A stretch of DNA of 64,000 bases from Microbulbifer sp. A4B17 (GTDB lineage Bacteria > Pseudomonadota > Gammaproteobacteria > Pseudomonadales > Cellvibrionaceae), in NCBI RefSeq assembly GCF_003076275.1, contig NZ_CP029064.1, forward strand, positions 3,762,001-3,826,000. The letters are read 5' to 3'. Both the position numbers and the translations under genes were made by a program. Positions 48,103-62,136 of this stretch are shown piece by piece; the stretch's first letter is position 1, and each line of letters starts with the position of its first letter. The notes below the pieces were generated by a model. It saw only the letters and a list, made by a program, of their open reading frames with translations. It ran no database searches and had not been told where the DNA came from.

Positions 48103-48379
48103 ATTACCTAAATAGCAAAAGCTTCTCTAGTTAAGTCAGCGCTAACCAATAACTTTTCGATAAAATTACAAAAGCAAAGAGCTGAAATGTGACGCGCATC
48201 CCACTTTTGGAATTTTACCGAATCCAGTCCTTTTATAGCGGTTAAACCTGCTGTCATCCAATGTAAAATCCGCCACGCCCGCTGGGACTCAAATAGCTTT
48301 GCTTTCTTTAAGCTACCCCCAACTTCGCGGCACGATCAGACCTAATAACAACCCTTTAAAATTTACTGGGACTAAACTC

Positions 48380-48916
48380 ATGCTTAGTTTTATCTCTGGA
48401 ATGTTCCGAAGTAACAAATCAGAAGACGCGGCGGACCTTGAAGAAAAATACACTCGCAGCTCCTACGCAGGAACTAAAGGAACCCGCACCATTTCTTACG
48501 ACCCGACTTTAATCAAGGCTCTGGAAGACGATCACCGCACCTTGATCGGCATTTTTCAGCGCATGTGGTCCGAGGGTTACGAAAAGCAGAACTATCGCCA
48601 GCTGTCACAGTTACTGACCCAATTTAAGTCCGGCTTTCAGGCCCACTTAATTAAAGAAAATGTGCGTTTTTATGTATACCTGGAGCAGGCTCTGGTTGGC
48701 GATGCCCACACTCTACAGGTAGTAAAAGACTTCCGCACTGACATGAACGAAATTGCAAATGCTGTTGTTCAATTTTGCAAGCGTTACAACCACGAAGCCT
48801 TTACCCCAGAAATGGTTCGCGATTTTAAAATGGATTACCAGAAAATCGGAGAGGCATTGACTCGCCGAACAGCTCTGGAAGAAAAAGAACTCTACGTCCT
48901 TTACCAACCCTCCTAA
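48380..48916 (+). CDS. Hemerythrin-like (HHE) domain protein
   Basis: A 178-residue all-helical protein. From about residue 45 it has D-D-H-R-T-L, then Q-A-H-L-I-K-E-N-V-R-F-Y and E-E-K-E-L-Y near the C-terminus, the His/Glu spacing of hemerythrin HHE proteins that bind a di-iron centre for O2, NO or redox sensing. Not every canonical iron ligand is evident, so iron binding needs checking. Start taken at ATG 48380; the frame is open from 48299 but that part is unlike the family. It lies alone between gltA and the flavocytochrome cluster. Confidence 0.7.
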   Translation: MLSFISGMFRSNKSEDAADLEEKYTRSSYAGTKGTRTISYDPTLIKALEDDHRTLIGIFQRMWSEGYEKQNYRQLSQLLTQFKSGFQAHLIKENVRFYVYLEQALVGDAHTLQVVKDFRTDMNEIANAVVQFCKRYNHEAFTPEMVRDFKMDYQKIGEALTRRTALEEKELYVLYQPS

Positions 48917-49419: not shown

Positions 49420-51447
49420 ATGACTGAGCTAGACGATACACTTGTCGAGCAATTACCAAGCGGTATACATGCTAATGACAGCAGTTACCCAATTTATGTA
49501 ATTATCGGTACGGGCCCTGTGGGCGTACGCTGCGCACAAAAACTGCTGGAATTCTGTGATGAAGCTCAAATTGTTATCTACGGAGCGGAAACAGAGACTC
49601 CCTACAACCGGGTTAAGCTCTCTCAATATTTATCAAGCCATGTAGAGCTGGAGGAACTTGATAATCCTATCCTCAGCCAAAGTGATCATCGGCTTGCCGA
49701 ATATATTGACCGCAAGATCATCTCTATTGATCGCTCACAAAAAACGGTTACCGATGCCGCTGGAAATATACAGCCCTACTCCAAGCTGATAATAGCGACT
49801 GGGTCAAATCCTATTATTCCAAAGATCCAGGGCGCGGATCTGCCGGGTGTTTATCCTTTTCGAAGCCTAAAAAATACCAACGATTTGCTCGACTTAAGGG
49901 AGCAAAATGCTGACATCTGTGTGGTCGGGGCTGGAGCCCTGGGACTTGAAGCAGCGACCGCATTAAAAACGCCTAAAAATAATGTCACCCTGCAATCCCG
50001 AGGCCACTTGTTGAGCGGCCTGTTAGGAGAGGAGGGAGAAGAGTTTCTCAAGTCCGCCCTTACTGCACTGGGCGTGGAATTAAAAATTTCGGATTCCCTT
50101 GTAGCTATTGAGGAGAGCGATAGCAAGCGCACACTCACTTTTGCCAGTGATGAAAAACTTTCCGTGGACGCCATCGTATTGTGTACGGGAATTCAGCCGG
50201 AAATTAGTCTGGCTGAACAATGTGGACTCGCTACTGAACGTGGGATCCTTGTCAATGAGTGGATGCAAACTTCTGACCCGGATGTTTATGCGGTAGGGGA
50301 GTGCGCTGAATTTGATCAAAAAGTTTACCAGTTGGTCCGACCAGGATACGAGCAAGCCGAGAGCTGCTGCTCGCATATTCAGCGAAATCACAGTGGAAAA
50401 TTTCAATCACAACCCTATTCCGGCAGTTACACCGATATCCAACTGAAAATTGCCCATATTCCCTGCGGAATTATGGGTGAAGTAGACCCGGAAAACCTCG
50501 ATCAGCAGGGGGGGGTAGAAAGCCACATTTATCGTAACCGCTTTAAAGGAATTTATAGGCGCTTATTTATCAAAGGCGAATATATCGTTGGAGCCATTTA
50601 TATTGGCAGCTGGAATGAAGCCAATGAACTGCGCCAAGCTGTAGCGCAGGAAGAAAAAATTTCTCTGCGCACACTCAAGCACTTTGAAAGCGAAGGACGG
50701 ATTTTTGCCAAAAAGTCCGGCAATAGCATTAAAGACTTCCCCGATAACTACCTGGTCTGTCAGTGCAACTCCGTCACCAAAGGTCAATTGTGCAAAGCAA
50801 TTTCCGCAGGCAAGCGCAATATAAATGAACTGCAGCAGGCAACAACTGCGGGATCGGTCTGCGGTAGTTGTCGACCTCTGATGGCAGAGCTTCTTGATGT
50901 GCCAGCGCCCAACCTGGTGATGCGGCACTCCAAGGGAATACTTATAACCTCTGTGCTGTCATTAATTTTAATTGCATTGGCTTTCCTAATGCCGCCAGCT
51001 CCAGTTTCACCTTCAGTACAAACTGCACCTTTTTGGGAAAAACTCTGGTACGACAATTTTTGGAAGCAGGTTACTGGCTATACCATTCTCGCCATGTGCC
51101 TCTTTACTGCCGCTCTCAGTATCAGGAAGCGCTGGAAGAAACTCAGCCTCGGCCATGTCGATCACTGGCGCTATGCACACAGTGTCACAGGCCTGATTGC
51201 CCTACTCACACTTGCCGTTCACTCGGGTTTCCGCCTAGGTGAAAACCTGAATTTAGCATTAATGCTGGTATTTCTGACTGCAACCGCAACCGGTTCGCTC
51301 GTCGGTGTTTTTATGGCGCGCAACCACCACTGGACCGACTTGAAACTTCGCGAACACCGAAAATGGTGGTCCCGAGTCCACTATGCCCTGCTCTGGGCCC
51401 TGCCAGTCCTCCTCGCCTACCATATTTTTGCGGTTTACTACTTCTAG
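49420..51447 (+). CDS. NirB-like FAD/BFD [2Fe-2S] oxidoreductase fused to a membrane domain
   Basis: A 675-residue fusion. Residues 25-300 form a NAD(P)H:FAD oxidoreductase like the N-terminus of NirB or rubredoxin reductases: G-T-G-P-V-G (30-35), P-Y-N-R-V-K-L-S (61-68), A-T-G-S (126-129), G-A-G-A-L-G (170-175) and V-Y-A-V-G-E-C (289-295). Residues 440-490 are a BFD-like [2Fe-2S] domain with Cys447, Cys449, Cys481 and Cys484. Five hydrophobic helices follow (about 508-524, 551-566, 588-602, 612-632, 652-672), with His582, His587, His601, His654 and His668 as possible haem b ligands. There is no nitrite-reductase sirohaem domain. It may pass NAD(P)H electrons into the membrane and on to the cytochrome encoded next, whose ATG directly abuts this stop codon. 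Confidence 0.85.
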   Translation: MTELDDTLVEQLPSGIHANDSSYPIYVIIGTGPVGVRCAQKLLEFCDEAQIVIYGAETETPYNRVKLSQYLSSHVELEELDNPILSQSDHRLAEYIDRKIISIDRSQKTVTDAAGNIQPYSKLIIATGSNPIIPKIQGADLPGVYPFRSLKNTNDLLDLREQNADICVVGAGALGLEAATALKTPKNNVTLQSRGHLLSGLLGEEGEEFLKSALTALGVELKISDSLVAIEESDSKRTLTFASDEKLSVDAIVLCTGIQPEISLAEQCGLATERGILVNEWMQTSDPDVYAVGECAEFDQKVYQLVRPGYEQAESCCSHIQRNHSGKFQSQPYSGSYTDIQLKIAHIPCGIMGEVDPENLDQQGGVESHIYRNRFKGIYRRLFIKGEYIVGAIYIGSWNEANELRQAVAQEEKISLRTLKHFESEGRIFAKKSGNSIKDFPDNYLVCQCNSVTKGQLCKAISAGKRNINELQQATTAGSVCGSCRPLMAELLDVPAPNLVMRHSKGILITSVLSLILIALAFLMPPAPVSPSVQTAPFWEKLWYDNFWKQVTGYTILAMCLFTAALSIRKRWKKLSLGHVDHWRYAHSVTGLIALLTLAVHSGFRLGENLNLALMLVFLTATATGSLVGVFMARNHHWTDLKLREHRKWWSRVHYALLWALPVLLAYHIFAVYYF

Positions 51448-52785
51448 ATGAAATCTTATCAATTTAAATTCTGGCATTACGGCGTATTGCTGACCCTGGT
51501 TATTGGCTCTGCAGTGGCATATAACCTTAACGTCGATGATAAATCTCTATTTATCAGTGGAGATGCCACTCACGGCCACCATCAAATTGAACTCGCTTGT
51601 ACCTCTTGTCACACCGATGGCTTTGGCGGTGAAGATGCCGTTCAACAAGCTTGCCTCAATTGCCATGCTGAGGAACTGGAGCTGGTCGACGACTCACATC
51701 CACGGCAAAAATTTTTAGACCCACGCAATGCAGTGCTTTTAGAAACACTGGATGCTCGCCTGTGCGTAAGTTGTCATACGGAGCACAAGCCACAAATAAC
51801 CGGGGAGATGGGCGTTACTTTGGCAGGTGATTTTTGCTTTCACTGCCACAGTGATATTGCCCAAGAACGCAGCAGCCATAAAGACCTGGGCTTTGAAACC
51901 TGTGCGAGTGCAGGCTGCCACAACTATCATGATAACGGTTCTCTCTATGAGGACTTCCTTATCGCTCATGTTGATCAACCTGACCTTTTGGAAACGGCAA
52001 ATCTCCCCGCACGCACAGCCGTTCAATCCTGGCTGAGTGAACACCCACAAACAACGCCGCTGCAAGTCAGTCATGCCGATATTGAAAAAGGAGACCATGC
52101 CGCCGAAATTGCTGCGGAATGGGCACAAAGCATTCATGCAAAAACGGATGTGAATTGCAGCAGTTGCCATGTCGATGGACAAATGCAATTCAGCAGTTTG
52201 GAAGTTGTGGAGCAGTGTGCAAGCTGTCATAGCGAGCAAAAAGAATCCTTCACAGGGGGGAAACACGGTATGCGCCTGTCCAATAAACTGGAGGAAGGAT
52301 TTATTCAGCAGGTCGGAGTTATCTCACCACAGCAGGCCCGCCTGCCTATGAATGCAAATGCTACTGAAGAATTGAGCTGTATCAGTTGTCATGGCCCACA
52401 TGAAGTTAATATGCAATTTGCTGCTGTTGAGGCCTGCCTGAGCTGCCACAATGATGAACACAGTCTCGCTTACAAGGAGTCCCCTCATTTCGATACCTGG
52501 AATTCAAACCCCGAAGGTGGAGTCAGCTGTGCCAGCTGTCATTTACCCCGGGAAACACATGGTGAGCAGATTGTGGTTAACCATAATCAGAACCACAACC
52601 TTCGCCCCAATGAAAAAATGATGCCAGTATGCCTGAGCTGTCATGGAGCCGAGTTTTCTCTTGCCGCGCTGGCTGACAAAAATCTAATTAATAGTAATTT
52701 CAAGCATAAACCCGTAGAGAAGCATAAAACCTTCGAGCTGATCCGCGAGCGTATTGCAAGGATTTCAAAAAGCAAAAACAAGTAA
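51448..52785 (+). CDS. Membrane-anchored decahaem-class multihaem cytochrome c
   Basis: A 445-residue protein with a single N-terminal membrane helix (about residues 11-27, no cleavage site) and a periplasmic domain holding ten CxxCH motifs starting at Cys51, 69, 106, 130, 237, 257, 311, 330, 361 and 395. One CX4CH motif at Cys152 could bind an eleventh haem if the maturation machinery accepts it. Many extra His residues could be distal ligands. The spacing resembles the cytochrome c3/NapC-NrfB-like multihaem families, but overall order is not one I recognise. The start codon follows the previous stop without a gap. Expected role: electron relay from the flavoprotein to periplasmic or outer-membrane acceptors. 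Confidence 0.88.
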   Translation: MKSYQFKFWHYGVLLTLVIGSAVAYNLNVDDKSLFISGDATHGHHQIELACTSCHTDGFGGEDAVQQACLNCHAEELELVDDSHPRQKFLDPRNAVLLETLDARLCVSCHTEHKPQITGEMGVTLAGDFCFHCHSDIAQERSSHKDLGFETCASAGCHNYHDNGSLYEDFLIAHVDQPDLLETANLPARTAVQSWLSEHPQTTPLQVSHADIEKGDHAAEIAAEWAQSIHAKTDVNCSSCHVDGQMQFSSLEVVEQCASCHSEQKESFTGGKHGMRLSNKLEEGFIQQVGVISPQQARLPMNANATEELSCISCHGPHEVNMQFAAVEACLSCHNDEHSLAYKESPHFDTWNSNPEGGVSCASCHLPRETHGEQIVVNHNQNHNLRPNEKMMPVCLSCHGAEFSLAALADKNLINSNFKHKPVEKHKTFELIRERIARISKSKNK

Positions 52786-52812
52786 AATCAATCCCAATAG
52801 GAGGGGAATAAT

Positions 52813-53361
52813 ATGCGTATTGCCGCTTGTATTATCGCTGGACTAGCCCTGCTCACAGGCTGTGAAAAAAACCAGGGAATTGCACCAGAGCGAATGGCGG
52901 ATGCCATCTTTGCTGTGATCGAGGCTGACAGGGCCAACTACACCAACAAAGTTGTAAACCGCCTGCAGAATGAGGAAAAAATTCTCGACGCGGATGAACA
53001 CTGGCAGGACAAGAAATTATTGCCACTCCCCGCACAGATGATGCGCATGGGTGCTGAGCGTGTTGCCGAAAAAGAGTCAGGGTTTAACTATGCCCTGCTC
53101 TCCCTGTGGCCGATCAACAAGCAAAACAAGCCGCGTACTGAAATGGAAAAAGAGGGTTTGCAGTACGTAATCGACAACCCGGGCAAGAATTTTTACGGCC
53201 GCGAAAAGCTGGGTGATACCGAATACTTCACTGCAGTCTATGCAGATGTAGGTGTATCTCCTGCGTGTGTTAGCTGCCACAATGACCACGTAGACAGCCC
53301 GCGCACCGATTTTGAGCTGGGCCATACGATGGGCGGTGTTGTTATTCGAATCCCACTCTGA
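52813..53361 (+). CDS. Tll0287-like (DUF3365) one-haem lipoprotein
   Basis: A 182-residue lipoprotein (lipobox L-L-T-G-C, Cys17) with a DUF3365/Tll0287-like domain. Members bind one c-type haem in a PAS-like fold and are proposed redox or gas sensors. The haem site is C-V-S-C-H at residues 152-156 near the C-terminus. A strong AGGAGGGG ribosome site precedes ATG 52813, 27 bases after the cytochrome gene, so all three genes form one operon. It could be the sensor, or a small electron carrier, of this chain; sequence cannot tell which. Confidence 0.82.
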   Translation: MRIAACIIAGLALLTGCEKNQGIAPERMADAIFAVIEADRANYTNKVVNRLQNEEKILDADEHWQDKKLLPLPAQMMRMGAERVAEKESGFNYALLSLWPINKQNKPRTEMEKEGLQYVIDNPGKNFYGREKLGDTEYFTAVYADVGVSPACVSCHNDHVDSPRTDFELGHTMGGVVIRIPL

Positions 53362-56607: not shown

Positions 56608-57351
56608 ATGGGCCAGCTAGGGTCAAAAATGAGTGGTGAAATCGTGGGCAGCGTAGAAAACCTTATAGAAAACAAACAGTTAGATAGTCATTCAAAAAAG
56701 CAGAAACTGGCACAGCTACTCGCCAGGGCCGATATCTGGCAGGCAGCCAATGAGCCCCGGCGGCGGCGGACCGGTATCTCCAGCGGCTCCTCCAGTCTCG
56801 ATGCACTGCTAACAGCCCACGGCTGGCCACGAGGAGCCACAACAGAACTACTGCTCGATCAGACCGGTATTGGTGAACTCACCCTGTTACTTCCAGCAAT
56901 GGCAGATCTCACCCAGCGTGGTCATATGGTGATACTGGTCAACCCACCTCATATCCCCTATGCGCCATCGCTGGCCAACAGTGGCGTCTGCCTGGAAAAC
57001 CTGCTGATCCTGCATCCTCGTGGCCCCAAAGATACACTTTGGGCAATAGAGCAGTCTCTGCAATCCGGAAGCTGCGGTGCCCTGCTCAGCTGGCAAGGGC
57101 GGCAGTCACTGGGGCACAAAGACCTTCGCCGTTTGCAACTCGCTGCCCGCAATGGAGACTGCCTGCATTTCCACTTCCGCCCGCAGAGTGAATCAGCGAC
57201 CCCCTCGCCGGCAAGCCTTCGCCTACAGCTCAAGCCTGGAGAGGGGCGGCTCGCACTAAAGCTATTGAAACAATTGGGCGGAACCTCTGGCCAACACCTG
57301 TACCTGGCAAGAGCAGCAAAACTGATCCGCCGCGACCGGCCGCTGCACTAA
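56608..57351 (+). CDS. imuA: Translesion synthesis accessory protein ImuA
   Basis: A 247-residue RecA-like/SulA-related protein of the mutasome. It has R-R-R-T-G-I-S-S-G-S-S-S-L-D-A-L-L near residue 50 and a G-W-P-R-G-A-T-T-E-L-L motif in the place of a Walker A region, then L-L-L-P-A-M and V-I-L-V-N-P-P strands, as in ImuA proteins. ATG 56608 has GGAG very close; ATG 56629 with AGGG six bases upstream is a good alternative start. First gene of the LexA-controlled operon; imuB follows after 21 bases. Confidence 0.88.
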   Translation: MGQLGSKMSGEIVGSVENLIENKQLDSHSKKQKLAQLLARADIWQAANEPRRRRTGISSGSSSLDALLTAHGWPRGATTELLLDQTGIGELTLLLPAMADLTQRGHMVILVNPPHIPYAPSLANSGVCLENLLILHPRGPKDTLWAIEQSLQSGSCGALLSWQGRQSLGHKDLRRLQLAARNGDCLHFHFRPQSESATPSPASLRLQLKPGEGRLALKLLKQLGGTSGQHLYLARAAKLIRRDRPLH

Positions 57352-57372
57352 ACAGTTTCAAGGGATAACATC

Positions 57373-58878
57373 ATGCTCTGGCTCTGTATCCAATTTCCCA
57401 AGCTCCCTCTGGAGGTACTGATCCGCGCACAAGAACAAGGAGAAGATGACTCACCCCAGGTCGTGGTTGAAAAGCAGATGGTAATTGGGAGCAGTCCGGC
57501 TGCACTCCAGTGTGGGGTTGAAAGCGGGCTCAGTATTGCCACTGCAACTGCCCTATGTGCAGACCTGCAGCTATTACAGCGCGATTTGCAGCGGGAGCAA
57601 CAAGAGTTACAGCAACTGGCCCAATGGGGGTACAGCTTCACCCCGCTTGTCTCACCTCAGCCGGCAGGCCCTATGAGCAATGGTGAAAGTACATCAGCTC
57701 ACCTTTACCTGGAGCTAAGTGGCAGTCTAAAAGCCAATGGCGGCTTCAAGGCATTGATAAGGCAGATAGAAAGCGAACTTGAACAGATGGGGATCGACAG
57801 CCTAATGGGCCTCGGCCACAGCCCCAGCGCAGCCCATTTGCTGAGTCAGCTAGCGGAACACAGGCACTGGCTAATACAAACGAATACCCCCCCCAGCCCA
57901 CAGCAGTGGAAGCAGTGGATCAGCTTTACCCCAACCAAGCTTCTTAATTGCGACAACAAAACCATTTCCAAACTCTACGCATGTGGCATCAAACGAGTAA
58001 GCCAGCTACTCGCCATTCCCCTCTCAGAGGTAGGCTCTCGTTTTGGTCGCTCATTTGTGGATTACCTGGCACGCCTTAATGGAAGTCGACAGGACCCGGT
58101 TTGCAACTACCAGCCACCAACACAATTCCGAAATGAACTGTTTTTCCCCAGCCCTCTGGATAATAGCGAGCAACTGCTATTCCCTATCGGGCGCCTGCTC
58201 CGAGAACTTTGCTCACAGTTACAGCGACGCCAGCTCTATACCCAACAATTAAACTGGCACATGGACTTCGGCAAAAACAAAGTCCAGGTAATAACTATAG
58301 AAACCTCCAACCCACAGCTCGACCCCCAGCGCTTGATAGCCCTGACCAAACTACAGCTGGAAAGAGTAACACTCGATCAGCCAGTGCAATCCATCTGTTT
58401 AAGTTGCAACCATTTACACCCCTTGGAAAAGGGATCACTGGATGAGGATTTATTTGGTGAAGGCAACCAACTTCAGCGCAACCAGCAGCTTTTAGATAAA
58501 TTAAAAGCCCGCCTCGGCCATCAAGCCTTATCGGGAGTTACCTTAAAAGAAAGCTACCTGCCGGAACAAGCCTGGCAAAGTGCCGACACTCTAATAATTA
58601 AAAGTAACCCCAAGGGACAACAAGTTAAGCCCATCCAAGCATCACGCCCCAACTGGCTACTGGCCCGCCCCACTAAACTGGAAAGTAGCGAACACAAATT
58701 ATATTACCAGGGGGAACTGCAACTATTACAGGGACCAGAGCGAATTGACGGTTACTGGTGGCAGCATGGACGCCACGGACGGGATTATTACATCGCAAAA
58801 AATTCAGGAGGCGAACTCTACTGGGTCTTTCAGGATCTTACCACTGAAGAGTGGTTTTTACATGGAATTTATAGCTAG
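57373..58878 (+). CDS. imuB: ImuB, catalytically inactive Y-family polymerase-like protein
   Basis: A 501-residue Y-family homolog that acts as the hub of the ImuA-ImuB-DnaE2 complex. The N-terminus M-L-W-L-C-I-Q-F-P-K-L-P-L-E lacks the catalytic acidic D-x-D residues of DinB. The G-I-x-R-V-S-Q-L-L-A-I-P HhH segment and the conserved N-G-x-R-Q-D-P motif are present. F-F-P-S-P-L followed by Q-L-L-F-P-I-G-R-L may include a clamp-binding motif. It is slightly longer than some homologs. It is encoded between imuA and dnaE2 in the SOS operon. Confidence 0.9.
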   Translation: MLWLCIQFPKLPLEVLIRAQEQGEDDSPQVVVEKQMVIGSSPAALQCGVESGLSIATATALCADLQLLQRDLQREQQELQQLAQWGYSFTPLVSPQPAGPMSNGESTSAHLYLELSGSLKANGGFKALIRQIESELEQMGIDSLMGLGHSPSAAHLLSQLAEHRHWLIQTNTPPSPQQWKQWISFTPTKLLNCDNKTISKLYACGIKRVSQLLAIPLSEVGSRFGRSFVDYLARLNGSRQDPVCNYQPPTQFRNELFFPSPLDNSEQLLFPIGRLLRELCSQLQRRQLYTQQLNWHMDFGKNKVQVITIETSNPQLDPQRLIALTKLQLERVTLDQPVQSICLSCNHLHPLEKGSLDEDLFGEGNQLQRNQQLLDKLKARLGHQALSGVTLKESYLPEQAWQSADTLIIKSNPKGQQVKPIQASRPNWLLARPTKLESSEHKLYYQGELQLLQGPERIDGYWWQHGRHGRDYYIAKNSGGELYWVFQDLTTEEWFLHGIYS

Positions 58879-58959
58879 CACTTAGCCCCTTATGAATGCC
58901 GGTTTTCGCCGAGATCCAGATTCCACCACAACCAATAGATAGACACCGAGAGAATCCGC

Positions 58960-61900
58960 ATGAGGTACGCCGAACTCTTCTGTCAAAGCAACTTTTCTTT
59001 TCTACAAGGGGCCTCACACCCGCAAGAGTTAGTACGCACAGCTTATAACTTGCAATACTCAGGCCTGGCCATCACAGACGAGTGCTCTCTTTCAGGAGCT
59101 GTAAGAGCTTACAAAGAATTACAGAATATAAAATTAACAGATGAAAAGAATCCAGACTTTAAGCTGATTTATGGCAGTTATTTTCACCTACACGAAGGCA
59201 AGGAAATAGTTTTACTAGCCCCCTGCAAAACAGCATATAGTGAGCTGTGTCAGTTAATTTCAAAATCACGCTTAAGAGCTGAAAAAGGAAAGTACATCAC
59301 CTACTTAAGTGACCTGGTAGAAATATGTAAAAATTTAATCGCCATATGGATTCCAAATTCCACAGAATTAGAAATACCTGAAGAAATTAAAGACAGCTTC
59401 AAAAGGCGTCTATATATTGCCATCAATAATCATCTACATGCAGAGGAAAACCTTAAGCACAATAAAATTATCGAATTTTCAAAAAGAGAAGGCATCCCCC
59501 TTGTTGCAACTAACTATGTATTGATGCATTGCAATAGTAGAAAACCACTACAAGATGTACTCAATGCAAATTATCATAACTGCACGCTGGATGATCTAGG
59601 GTATCGTATAGAGCAAAATGCGGAACGCTACCTACGTAGTTTGGACGACATTCAATCCCTAAACTCCAAAGACGCCATCGGAAACACGTATTCTATAGCC
59701 AACCAATGTACTTTCTGCTTAAGTGAGCTCAATTATGAGTATCCATCAGAAGTCATTCCAGGCGGAAGTAACGCCAGCAACTACTTAAGGGATTTAGTAG
59801 AAAAAGGAAGGTCAGTCCGCTGGCCGCAGGGTCCAGAAACGCGAATTGATGAAACAATAAAGAAAGAGCTCTCCTTAATATCTGAATTGCAATATGAGCA
59901 TTACTTCCTGACCATCTACGATATAGTCCAGTTTGCCCAGAAAAATCATATTTTGTACCAGGGCCGCGGTTCTGCAGCCAACTCTGTGGTTTGCTACTGT
60001 CTATTTATTACAGAGATAGACCCTCATAAAATTGGCTTACTGTTTGAACGTTTTATTTCCCGGGAACGCAATGAGCCCCCAGATATTGACGTAGATTTTG
60101 AACACGAAAGGCGTGAAGAAGTCATTCAGTATATTTACAGAAAATATGGTCGGGAAAGAGCAGGACTTGCTGCCAGTAAAACCACCTATCGGTATAAAAG
60201 TGCCGTAAGAGATATCGGCAAGGCCCTCGGTATCAACACTGCAACAATAGAACACCTGATTGCCGAACGCGCCTGGTGGGATACTCTAGATAGTTTTCCC
60301 CAGCAGATGCAGAAAGTGGGAATAGACCCGAGCAGCGTAACAGGAAAAATGTTCCCACAGTTACTACAACAGATATATGGTTTTCCAAGACACTTATCGC
60401 AACATGTCGGTGGCTTTGTTATTACTGAGCAGCCATTGCACCAGCTGGTTCCTATTGAAAATGCCGCTATGGAGGATCGCACCCTAATCCAATGGGACAA
60501 AGAGGATATCGAAGATTTAAAGCTAATGAAGGTCGATGTGCTCGCGCTGGGCATGCTGACTGCACTGCGTAAATCCCTGAATTATATTGCTCTATACGGC
60601 CCCAAATGGCGATTGCAGGATATTCCCGCCGAAGATCCACAGGTCTATGAAATGATGTGCAGGGCCGATACCGTTGGAGTCTTTCAAATTGAATCTCGCG
60701 CTCAAATGAGCATGCTGCCAAGATTACAACCTCGAAATTTTTATGAGCTTACTATAGAAATCGCCATTGTCCGCCCAGGTCCAATTCAAGGCGGCATGGT
60801 ACACCCCTATTTGAAACGCAAGCAGGGATTAGAGACCGTACGCTACCCTCATAACAGTTTACGCCCAGTGCTTGAGCGCACTCTCGGTGTGCCTATATTT
60901 CAAGAACAAGTTATTCAGCTGTCGATGGTCGCAGCAGGGTTTAGCGGCGGTGAAGCGGATGAGCTTCGCCGAGCCATGGCAAGCTGGGGAAAAAATGGGG
61001 ACTTGTATAAATTCAGGGGTAAGCTTGTGCGGGGGATGCAAAGTAATGGCTATAGGGAAAGTTTTGCTGAGCAGCTCTTCAACCAGATGAAGGGGTTCGG
61101 CTCCTATGGCTTCCCCGAATCTCACTCTGCAAGCTTTGCGCTTTTAGCCTATTTTTCTGCCTGGATTAAATACCATCATCCAGCGGCCTTTTACTGTGGG
61201 CTGCTCAACAGTCAGCCGATGGGGTTCTATGCTCCGGCACAGCTAGTTTATGATGCTCAACGCCACGGAGTTAAGGTTTTGCCTATTGATGTACTTTATA
61301 GCTATTGGAATCACAGCTTAGAGATACAAGAGCTCTCTTCACCTCAAGAAAGAGCTTCATCGAAAAATTACTGCGCTAAAGGAAAATCAGTAGTTAATAC
61401 GCCGGCAGTGCCGCTCAGGGAAAATTCAACATTCAGCAATAAAACTCCCGCTTTACGTCTGGGCATGCGTCTAATTAAAGGGCTAAAAGAAACCACAGAG
61501 AAAGCTATCCTAAAGCTTAGAGCGGATACAAAACTCCTTTCTTTAGGACAGTTTCAAGAACTTTTAGAGCTAAACCATGAGCAGCTTTCCTGCCTTACTA
61601 AGGCTAATGCATTTATCAGCTTGACTCGAAATCGCCATAACGACAATTGGACTTCTATAGAAACCGATCACAGCAAGCCACAGACAAGTTTTTTACCGCG
61701 AAATTATATAAAAGACAGTAGCGACATTGACTATAGTAGCACAGGGCTAACCCTTGGCGAACATCCTGTCGCATTACTAAGAAGGCAAAAAAAGTTTCAG
61801 AAATATACTAAAGCAAAGGACCTTACCTACTGTTGTGATCGGGAAAGAATTGAGATCATTGGACTGGTAACTTGCCGACAACGGCCCGGAAGCGCATCTG

Positions 61901-62136
61901 GAGTGATGTTTTTAACCCTGGAAGATGAAACAGGCTGCATAAATGTAGTGATTTATGAGGCCTATCAAACCTTATATAAAGCAGAGATTATCCATGGAGG
62001 CATATTGATTGTTCATGGGGAGCTACAAATCTCTAAAGAGGCCAATAACAACAGCTATAAGACCACTCATGTCATCGCCAGAAGAATATCAAGTATCAGT
62101 GAGAAAAATTACCAGAAGACAAGAAATTTTCATTAA
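58960..62136 (+). CDS. dnaE2: Error-prone DNA polymerase III alpha subunit DnaE2
   Basis: A 1058-residue C-family polymerase that performs damage-induced mutagenic synthesis. The N-terminal PHP domain starts N-F-S-F-L-Q-G-A-S-H-P-Q-E-L, with A-I-T-D-E-C-S-L-S-G. The polymerase palm has P-P-D-I-D-V-D-F-E-H-E-R-R (two catalytic Asp near residues 376-378) and later R-P-G-P-I-Q-G-G-M-V-H-P-Y and F-Q-E-Q-V. A C-terminal OB-fold domain with R-P-G-S-A-S-G-V-M-F ends the protein. The first 300 and last 250 residues are more AT-rich than the neighbours. It lies 81 bases after imuB. Confidence 0.95.
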   Translation: MRYAELFCQSNFSFLQGASHPQELVRTAYNLQYSGLAITDECSLSGAVRAYKELQNIKLTDEKNPDFKLIYGSYFHLHEGKEIVLLAPCKTAYSELCQLISKSRLRAEKGKYITYLSDLVEICKNLIAIWIPNSTELEIPEEIKDSFKRRLYIAINNHLHAEENLKHNKIIEFSKREGIPLVATNYVLMHCNSRKPLQDVLNANYHNCTLDDLGYRIEQNAERYLRSLDDIQSLNSKDAIGNTYSIANQCTFCLSELNYEYPSEVIPGGSNASNYLRDLVEKGRSVRWPQGPETRIDETIKKELSLISELQYEHYFLTIYDIVQFAQKNHILYQGRGSAANSVVCYCLFITEIDPHKIGLLFERFISRERNEPPDIDVDFEHERREEVIQYIYRKYGRERAGLAASKTTYRYKSAVRDIGKALGINTATIEHLIAERAWWDTLDSFPQQMQKVGIDPSSVTGKMFPQLLQQIYGFPRHLSQHVGGFVITEQPLHQLVPIENAAMEDRTLIQWDKEDIEDLKLMKVDVLALGMLTALRKSLNYIALYGPKWRLQDIPAEDPQVYEMMCRADTVGVFQIESRAQMSMLPRLQPRNFYELTIEIAIVRPGPIQGGMVHPYLKRKQGLETVRYPHNSLRPVLERTLGVPIFQEQVIQLSMVAAGFSGGEADELRRAMASWGKNGDLYKFRGKLVRGMQSNGYRESFAEQLFNQMKGFGSYGFPESHSASFALLAYFSAWIKYHHPAAFYCGLLNSQPMGFYAPAQLVYDAQRHGVKVLPIDVLYSYWNHSLEIQELSSPQERASSKNYCAKGKSVVNTPAVPLRENSTFSNKTPALRLGMRLIKGLKETTEKAILKLRADTKLLSLGQFQELLELNHEQLSCLTKANAFISLTRNRHNDNWTSIETDHSKPQTSFLPRNYIKDSSDIDYSSTGLTLGEHPVALLRRQKKFQKYTKAKDLTYCCDRERIEIIGLVTCRQRPGSASGVMFLTLEDETGCINVVIYEAYQTLYKAEIIHGGILIVHGELQISKEANNNSYKTTHVIARRISSISEKNYQKTRNFH

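Follow-up and report, generated by a model that had tools for sequence, protein, structure and literature searches.

Whether three consecutive genes of Microbulbifer sp. A4B17, here called P1, P2 and P3, encode an electron route from reduced nicotinamide adenine dinucleotide (phosphate), NAD(P)H, to haems of the periplasm, and what such a route might serve, is the question raised by the locus described here. The genes lie within a stretch of 64,000 nucleotides (nt) of the forward strand (NZ_CP029064.1, positions 3,762,001-3,826,000), analysed as a whole and referred to as the window, in a genome consisting of a single contig of 5.04 Mb. The domains, haem sites, invariant ligands, gene order, joint losses and genomic context reported below were established by computation, and the operon very probably encodes an electron conduit across the inner membrane, leading from NAD(P)H to the periplasm. 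A first-pass annotation of the window, made from its sequence, had located the three reading frames correctly at 49420-53361 and had proposed a chain of this kind.

The three proteins of the operon

49420..51447, + strand: P1, NirB-N-like flavin adenine dinucleotide (FAD)/NAD(P)H domain, BFD [2Fe-2S] domain and five-helix, di-haem-b-like membrane domain, 675 amino acids (aa)
51448..52785, + strand: P2, membrane-anchored undecahaem c-type cytochrome, 445 aa
52813..53361, + strand: P3, DUF3365/Tll0287-like (sCache_heme) one-haem lipoprotein, 182 aa

The genes are as tightly spaced as had been annotated: the stop codon of P1 abuts the start of P2, with a gap of 0 nt, and 27 nt, including a Shine-Dalgarno-like AGGAGG, separate P2 from P3. 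The DNA pattern of the haem-binding motif CxxCH was counted 14 times in the window, where shuffled sequences lead one to expect 4.72; 0 of 100 shuffles reached 14, and 11 of the 14 occurrences fall within P2 and P3. Because of this excess, together with the conserved gene order described below, the clustering is not attributed to chance. A scan for promoters and terminators gave no excess over shuffles, and an alignment of the upstream regions of Microbulbifer species revealed an AT-rich block in part of the species only.

Residue conservation was evaluated on 97 P1, 106 P2 and 102 P3 sequences, the P1 set being made up of copies neither split nor ended by contig edges. Four alignments (A1-A4), of 25, 77, 67 and 46 sequences, were picked by hand. 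The following segments were defined in P1:

49495..50355, + strand: FAD/NAD(P)H domain, residues 26-312 (PF07992, E 4.6e-50)
50752..50898, + strand: BFD [2Fe-2S] domain, residues 445-493, with Cys 447, 449, 481 and 484 (PF04324, E 1.5e-12)
50929..51438, + strand: membrane domain, residues 504-673, with His587/His601 and His654/His668 (conserved His, model helices)

Pfam matches (Pyr_redox_2 at 26-312, Rubredoxin_C at 341-411, Fer2_BFD at 445-493) and an AlphaFold2 model (mean pLDDT 88.3) bear out the annotation of P1 as a NirB-N-like FAD protein with a BFD domain and five membrane helices. The five long helices of the model span residues 504-523, 546-569, 580-602, 610-634 and 640-673. The four cysteines of the BFD domain are invariant in 97/97 sequences, and so are the four membrane histidines, of which helices 3 and 5 each bear one H-X13-H pair; these are candidates for the bis-His sites for which modelling of the membrane domain had been suggested. 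With the pairs so placed in the two helices, one pair should therefore lie near each membrane face. Two stacked haems crossing the membrane are the layout of di-haem b proteins that the pairs match, and the four histidines fit as predicted ligands of two stacked b haems. A match of the domain to PF01292 is weak (E 0.00056, 20.2 bits, under the cut-off of 30.1), and the loops on the presumed cytoplasmic side are positively charged.

As in the large subunit of NirB, the FAD-NAD(P)H domain of P1 is followed by a BFD [2Fe-2S] domain, an order also seen in the Klebsiella NasC flavoproteins. NirB is also the top NCBIfam model for P1 (residues 27-494), at 346.5 bits against a cut-off of 578.35, and against 1107 bits for the genome's own NirB. 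Unlike NirB, P1 ends in five membrane helices and is devoid of sirohaem domains: no NIR_SIR match was obtained for it in Pfam, while one is found in the genome's own NirB. NOX, FRE and STEAP proteins transfer electrons from NAD(P)H across the membrane to the outside by way of two b haems, whose ligands are H-X13-H-like pairs located in two helices. P1 shares with NOX and the ferric reductases the two pairs in two helices, but its flavodomain is N-terminal and of NirB type, it carries an Fe-S cluster, and its electrons would go to c haems. In addition, no significant match to Ferric_reduct (PF01794) was detected: the membrane domain of the window's P1 has none at E 1, and the best score, 13.6 bits against a cut-off of 28, comes from a single relative (L173).

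Two segments of P2 are considered:

51901..51921, + strand: eleventh haem site CX4CH (CASAGCH), residues 152-158, with C152, C157 and H158 invariant
52069..52782, + strand: C-terminal six-haem domain, residues 208-445, possibly HAO/octahaem nitrite reductase/NrfA-like

P2 had been annotated as a membrane-anchored cytochrome with ten CxxCH motifs. The ten motifs are indeed in frame and the N-terminal helix (residues 2-28) is present, but the eleventh site, of the CX4CH type, had been overlooked. C152, C157 and H158 are invariant in 106/106 sequences; all eleven haem motifs are kept in 106/106, every one ending in His. Eleven further histidines (44, 84, 113, 144, 161, 230, 273, 318, 338, 347 and 379) are conserved, ten of them in 106/106 sequences and H318 in 105/106. 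Since eleven motifs are accompanied by eleven such residues, P2 fits a wire of eleven bis-His haems.

Residues 208-445 appear to resemble HAO, octahaem nitrite reductase and NrfA in fold and local sequence; Foldseek searches with P2 gave no match under E 0.001, and the model of the N-terminal half is of low confidence. P2 might be thought of as a new member of this group, i.e. a periplasmic reductase of nitrite, nitric oxide (NO) or hydroxylamine, with P1 as its NAD(P)H-driven donor. However, the position aligned to the catalytic His is Ser in 104/106 sequences and Thr in 2/106, and the catalytic haem motif CXXCK was found in none of the 106. For these reasons a catalytic P2 was demoted to a rival explanation, which is rated unlikely. 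P2 further differs from these enzymes in an extra N-terminal part of five haems, including the CX4CH site, and in its membrane anchor.

The annotation of P3 as a one-haem, Tll0287-like lipoprotein was corroborated by a match to PF11845 (68.5 bits, cut-off 24.1), a single CxxCH at nt 53266-53280 and a lipobox-like Cys at residue 17. The CxxCH is present in 102/102 sequences and no Cys occurs between lipobox and CxxCH in any of them, so that the axial Cys of Tll0287 type is absent. Met76, found in 101/102 sequences and located 80 residues ahead of the haem His in 93/102, is a candidate distal haem ligand. Comparison of P3 with the PDB, by sequence and by profile, gave no match at E 10.

DUF3365 has been reclassified as sCache_heme in a 2026 preprint (PMC12889525). 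According to the preprint, the only tested DUF3365 protein without the axial Cys, of signalling type and from P. azotoformans, binds NO tightly, while the stand-alone protein of P. putida appears redox-like. In GSU0935, as described in part of PMC8396549, the haem is coordinated by His/Met60 or by His/water, NO displaces Met60, and 84 residues separate Met60 from His144; the similar spacing in P3 (80 vs 84 residues) suggests that Met76 may be the equivalent of Met60. Judged from its sequence, P3 is like one sCache_heme class in standing alone, with the Pfam cut-off passed and the CxxCH kept, and like the other, signalling class in the surroundings of its haem. Unlike the Cys/His stand-alone members, it has the axial Cys in 0/102 sequences and a conserved Met, probably comparable to that of the signalling protein GSU0935.

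P3 could be imagined as a sensor of redox state or of a gas, its signal being read out by a partner kinase encoded elsewhere, with P1 and P2 holding its haem reduced and responsive. Fusions of DUF3365 domains to signalling modules do occur, and the tested member has NO-sensor properties (PMC12889525); moreover, one lone P3 homologue, in genome G045, adjoins the gene of a hybrid histidine kinase that includes an SBP domain. Against this, no histidine kinase was recognised by eye among 40 clusters of neighbouring genes, response-regulator-like genes are few, at three loci each, and eleven haems are much wire for a sensor; the idea is held to be improbable. The kinase beside the lone G045 gene (L207 7696-8295, G045:C131) is 1856 aa long and combines SBP, PAS, receiver and Hpt domains. 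One-haem genes more distantly related to P3, with no P2 next to them, were observed in G166 (L208 6268-6864), G055 (L210 8118-8666) and G076 (L211 7184-7792), and are second or partial copies.

Conservation of the unit and of its feeder

Relatives of the operon were collected at two levels, genomes and loci being denoted by G and L numbers. The species-level collection contained 407 stretches with P2 relatives, of which the best 80 by similarity were analysed; the resulting figures thus describe near to middling relatives, 18 of the 80 being Microbulbifer, and the locus counts are not independent, as near-identical pairs (L169/L170, L187/L192) are present. The second sample comprised 293 genomes of the order, in which P1 matches were accepted only at E 1e-60 or better. 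Among the loci compared, the P2 of the window is closest to that of Microbulbifer okhotskensis (88% identity).

The order of the three genes, the conservation of which the first-pass annotation had left to be checked, is kept. The membrane domain of P1 lies directly upstream of P2 in 80/80 of the best 80 relatives, and P3 lies downstream of P2 in 77/80, being located upstream of P1 in L190 and lost to contig ends in L144 and L161. Besides Microbulbifer, these loci belong to many other Gammaproteobacteria, to Betaproteobacteria and one alphaproteobacterium, and to Nitrospirota, Poribacteria, Dadabacteria, Acidobacteriota and Verrucomicrobiota.

In the order, full-length P1 is found in 26/293 genomes, followed by P2 and P3 in 26/26. 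An independent profile search detected P2 in 30/293 genomes, namely those 26 together with G013, G076, G116 and G174. P3 adjoins P2 in 30/30 of them, and the membrane domain of P1 adjoins P2 in 29, the other P2 (G013) being at a contig edge. Frames are broken for both P1 and P2 in G174 (L206) and for P2 in G116 (L209), either as pseudogenes or through sequencing errors. The possibility that the homologues routinely occur apart, which would have spoken against a functional unit, was consequently rejected: in the profile searches for P2 and P3 across the 293 genomes each P2 has a P3 alongside.

Losses are also joint. In G066 and G098 the membrane domain, P2 and P3 have all gone, and P2 and P3 were not found anywhere in these two genomes by profile searches, while the FAD part stays between the same conserved flanking genes, with 458 aa and no BFD domain in G066 (L204 6278-7654) and 519 aa in G098 (L059 8297-9856). 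Four other sampled genomes of the same genus retain the whole set. From this joint loss and joint retention it follows that the membrane domain, P2 and P3 act as one unit.

Four loci tell against a conduit fed by NAD(P)H in every case, since they hold the membrane domain, P2 and P3 together in the absence of the FAD-BFD part: L173 (Bryobacterales), L182 and L195 (both Dadabacteria) and the locus of G076. In the genome of L173 the sole match to the soluble half of P1 is a frame of 1049 aa, a NirB-like size. One of the Dadabacteria genomes matches P1 residues 27-298 only and the other has no match at E 1e-10; no FAD protein reaching the BFD region was found in the two at this threshold, both being metagenome-assembled genomes (MAGs) that may be incomplete. 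The membrane domain of G076 has, in place of FAD-BFD, a GPP34 (Golgi phosphoprotein 3) domain as its fusion partner (L205, G076:C51, 8502-9674, - strand). On the P2 tree the four cases require at least two changes.

The core is therefore the b-haem domain with P2 and P3, and electrons could also come from sources other than NAD(P)H. The FAD-BFD part is the usual but replaceable feeder, and the idea of a fixed donor was rejected on account of L173, L182, L195 and G076. As to the chain from NAD(P)H to periplasmic haems put forward in the first-pass annotation, its cofactors and the conserved three-gene unit stand; NAD(P)H as the sole source does not.

Gas-binding and nitrate genes around the operon

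The surroundings of the operon, missed in the first-pass annotation as was the eleventh haem, contain genes for gas-binding proteins. In the window the following gene was identified:

48299..48916, + strand: hemerythrin-domain protein, 205 aa, upstream of the operon (PF01814, 37.8 bits, cut-off 25.3)

A hemerythrin homologue is present in 18/18 Microbulbifer loci, within 4.5 kb in 17 and at 5.2 kb in L127, and is probably a functional neighbour rather than a core part. In the 62 non-Microbulbifer loci a gas-binding gene lies within 4.5 kb in 45 cases, coding for a globin in 30, a truncated globin in 7 and a hemerythrin in 8, so that three unrelated O2/NO-binding folds recur beside one operon. 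No gas-binding match was detected beyond 4.5 kb in these loci, where the far flank searched amounted to 386 kb and the near flank to 586 kb. A one-haem cytochrome c is encoded nearby in 18/62.

Genes for nitrate uptake and assimilation (NrtABC, NasS/NasT, NarK, NasA-like or NirB) occur in 22/62 of the same loci: by type, NrtA/NasS in 19, NrtB in 17, NrtC in 14 and NasT in 15. The reference proteins of this search were named by the author; NarK and the NtrCD-type ATPase score above their NCBIfam cut-offs and NrtB under its own, NasT is an ANTAR response regulator, and NasS and NrtA are both NMT1_2 proteins, which match each other. The only nitrate match of L151, a generic ABC ATPase, was not counted.

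The window's genome has its own nas locus, with NasT- and NasS-like genes, a NarK-family transporter, a PP2C-kinase fusion, nirB and a NasA-like gene. The last encodes a molybdopterin oxidoreductase that ends in a BFD domain; its best models, Fdh-alpha and NasC, are all under cut-off, so that its name is given by context. The fusion of a PP2C phosphatase to a protein kinase is encoded between the NarK-family transporter and nirB (L060 5372-7147).

A strong NirB is found in 25/26 P1-positive genomes of the order, against 175/293 overall (Fisher p 2.7e-5, kinship ignored); the 26th, G017, has a weak match only (E 3.7e-8). As both proteins are thus present together, P1 was rejected as a replacement of NirB. 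It could still be chiefly an NAD(P)H donor to a cytoplasmic nitrate reductase or globin, with the periplasmic branch secondary, in a role which we take to be like that of Klebsiella NasC. The soluble half of P1 is NirB-like and persists without the rest in G066 and G098 (458 aa lacking BFD and 519 aa, respectively), and the comparable Flp of Bradyrhizobium is required for growth on nitrate, as stated in the available part of PMC4724949. Such a role is nonetheless judged very unlikely, given that the membrane domain, P2 and P3 are kept without FAD-BFD at four loci and that two Microbulbifer genomes, G144 and G209, encode NirB and a NasA-like protein yet lack P1 as well as any stand-alone FAD protein reaching the BFD region (E 1e-25). 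P1 is therefore no fixed companion of the NasA-like and NirB genes in Microbulbifer.

A porin of about 390-450 aa recurs in 11/62 loci, near nitrate transporters in the relatives inspected; the copy of L044 matches Alginate_exp. This gene bears on a further alternative, in which the operon would serve extracellular electron transfer or act as a redox valve (towards metals, electrodes or a periplasmic sink), in the manner of MtrA or of the undecahaem cytochrome of Tenderiales. P2 has a weak match to the decahaem DmsE family, relatives occur in one Gallionellaceae MAG and two biocathode MAGs, and the undecahaem cytochrome of Ca. Tenderia (Tel_16545; UetJ of the Uet complex) is a candidate for such transfer in the excerpts available of PMC5371394 and PMC10734462. 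The DmsE score, 56.8 bits with TIGR03508, is however far below the cut-off of 192.2, and a ten-haem conduit of DmsE type was rejected. The position and family match of the porin likewise point away from extracellular transfer, and inspection by eye of the 40 neighbour clusters revealed no partners of Uet type. Likeness to the Uet complex, drawn from its description, thus concerns the eleven-haem cytochrome; the porin, tri- and tetrahaem cytochromes, NHL proteins and PPIase named in the excerpted text (PMC10734462) were not recognised beside P1-P2-P3. Overall, this alternative is quite unlikely.

Proposed mechanism and role

In the mechanism proposed here, P1 would oxidise NAD(P)H through its FAD in the cytoplasm and pass the electrons over its [2Fe-2S] cluster to a pair of b haems, which helices 3 and 5 would hold in a stack spanning the membrane. 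The electrons would then enter P2, an anchored periplasmic wire of eleven bis-His c haems, the outer half of which would have a nitrite-reductase-like fold with its active site closed or altered, and would finally reach the lipoprotein P3, a Cache domain carrying a single c haem. The sixth position of this haem may be taken by a labile Met or be open, so that NO could bind. This conduit, from FAD to [2Fe-2S], two b haems, eleven c haems and P3, follows from the parts.

As to its job, we infer which way the electrons flow, that NO is the ligand and what the physiological role is: the operon may provide a periplasmic redox arm against NO or related nitrogen-oxide stress around nitrate and nitrite assimilation, in partnership with a cytoplasmic NO/O2-binding protein encoded alongside (single-domain globin, truncated globin or hemerythrin). 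A role of NO is suggested by the haem site of P3, by the gas-binding and nitrate genes nearby and by a precedent in Bradyrhizobium. The reading as a whole, i.e. a conduit that also handles NO or nitrogen oxides as an accessory to nitrate assimilation, is a tentative one, with a chance somewhat short of even.

The precedent is the narK-bjgb-flp-nasC module of B. japonicum, in which nitrate assimilation under NasST control is coupled to the removal of NO: a single-domain globin and an NAD(P)H flavoprotein are proposed to detoxify the NO that assimilation gives rise to (PMC4724949). Similarly, globin and NasT/NasS-type or NrtABC genes are found beside P1-P2-P3 in some relatives: outside Microbulbifer, globins in 30/62 loci and nitrate genes in 22/62. 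The portion of PMC4724949 drawn on mentions no b-haem membrane domain, multihaem cytochrome or DUF3365 protein, in which respects the two systems differ.

Several observations, in addition to the four loci without FAD-BFD, weigh against this reading. All 18 Microbulbifer loci have the hemerythrin and none has nitrate genes (0/18), and in the window's genome about 320 kb separate the nas locus from the operon. In 11/62 non-Microbulbifer loci, several of them incomplete in length, gas-binding genes and nitrate genes are both missing; these loci include both Dadabacteria and all four Poribacteria. P1 is present in just 25/175 NirB-bearing genomes of the order, and the operon is missing from 3/6 sampled Microbulbifer genomes; it is therefore accessory and not needed for nitrate assimilation. 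The Rrf2 regulator beside the Cerasicoccus cluster (L190 4766-5230) scores equally for RirA and NsrR, under both cut-offs, and so offers no proof of control by NO. Globins and hemerythrins bind O2 as well, and O2 may be concerned instead of NO. Finally, the only tested stand-alone DUF3365 protein, that of P. putida, which has the axial Cys, binds NO weakly, as does its Cys-to-Ala variant (PMC12889525).

A more specific version is doubtful. It would see the operon as an NADPH-oxidase-like system for nitrogen oxides, in which a NirB-type flavo-FeS b-cytochrome feeds an undecahaem wire derived from the HAO/nitrite reductase group and an NO-binding P3 reduces or scavenges periplasmic NO or nitrite, while the co-encoded globin or hemerythrin guards the cytoplasm.

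Each domain belongs to, or is like, a known family. The assembly, the eleven-haem wire and their spread are not described in the open-licence PubMed Central (PMC) literature searched; in particular, as the first-pass annotation had supposed, no named system of this composition is described in the passages drawn on from its papers on DUF3365/Tll0287. If the proposal were correct, NAD(P)H would have a route to periplasmic c haems bypassing the quinone pool and the NapC/CymA-type proteins, and stand-alone sCache_heme proteins would gain a redox partner. In marine Gammaproteobacteria, and in several further phyla, nitrate assimilation would also be linked to an arm for NO or nitrite in the periplasm. 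As the unit is small and conserved and occurs in Microbulbifer that can be cultured, the idea lends itself to direct testing.

Elsewhere in the window, a run of three genes at positions 56608-62136 encodes domains of RecA/SulA-like, Y-family polymerase-like and DNA polymerase III alpha type; together they look like an ImuA-ImuB-DnaE2 mutagenesis cassette.

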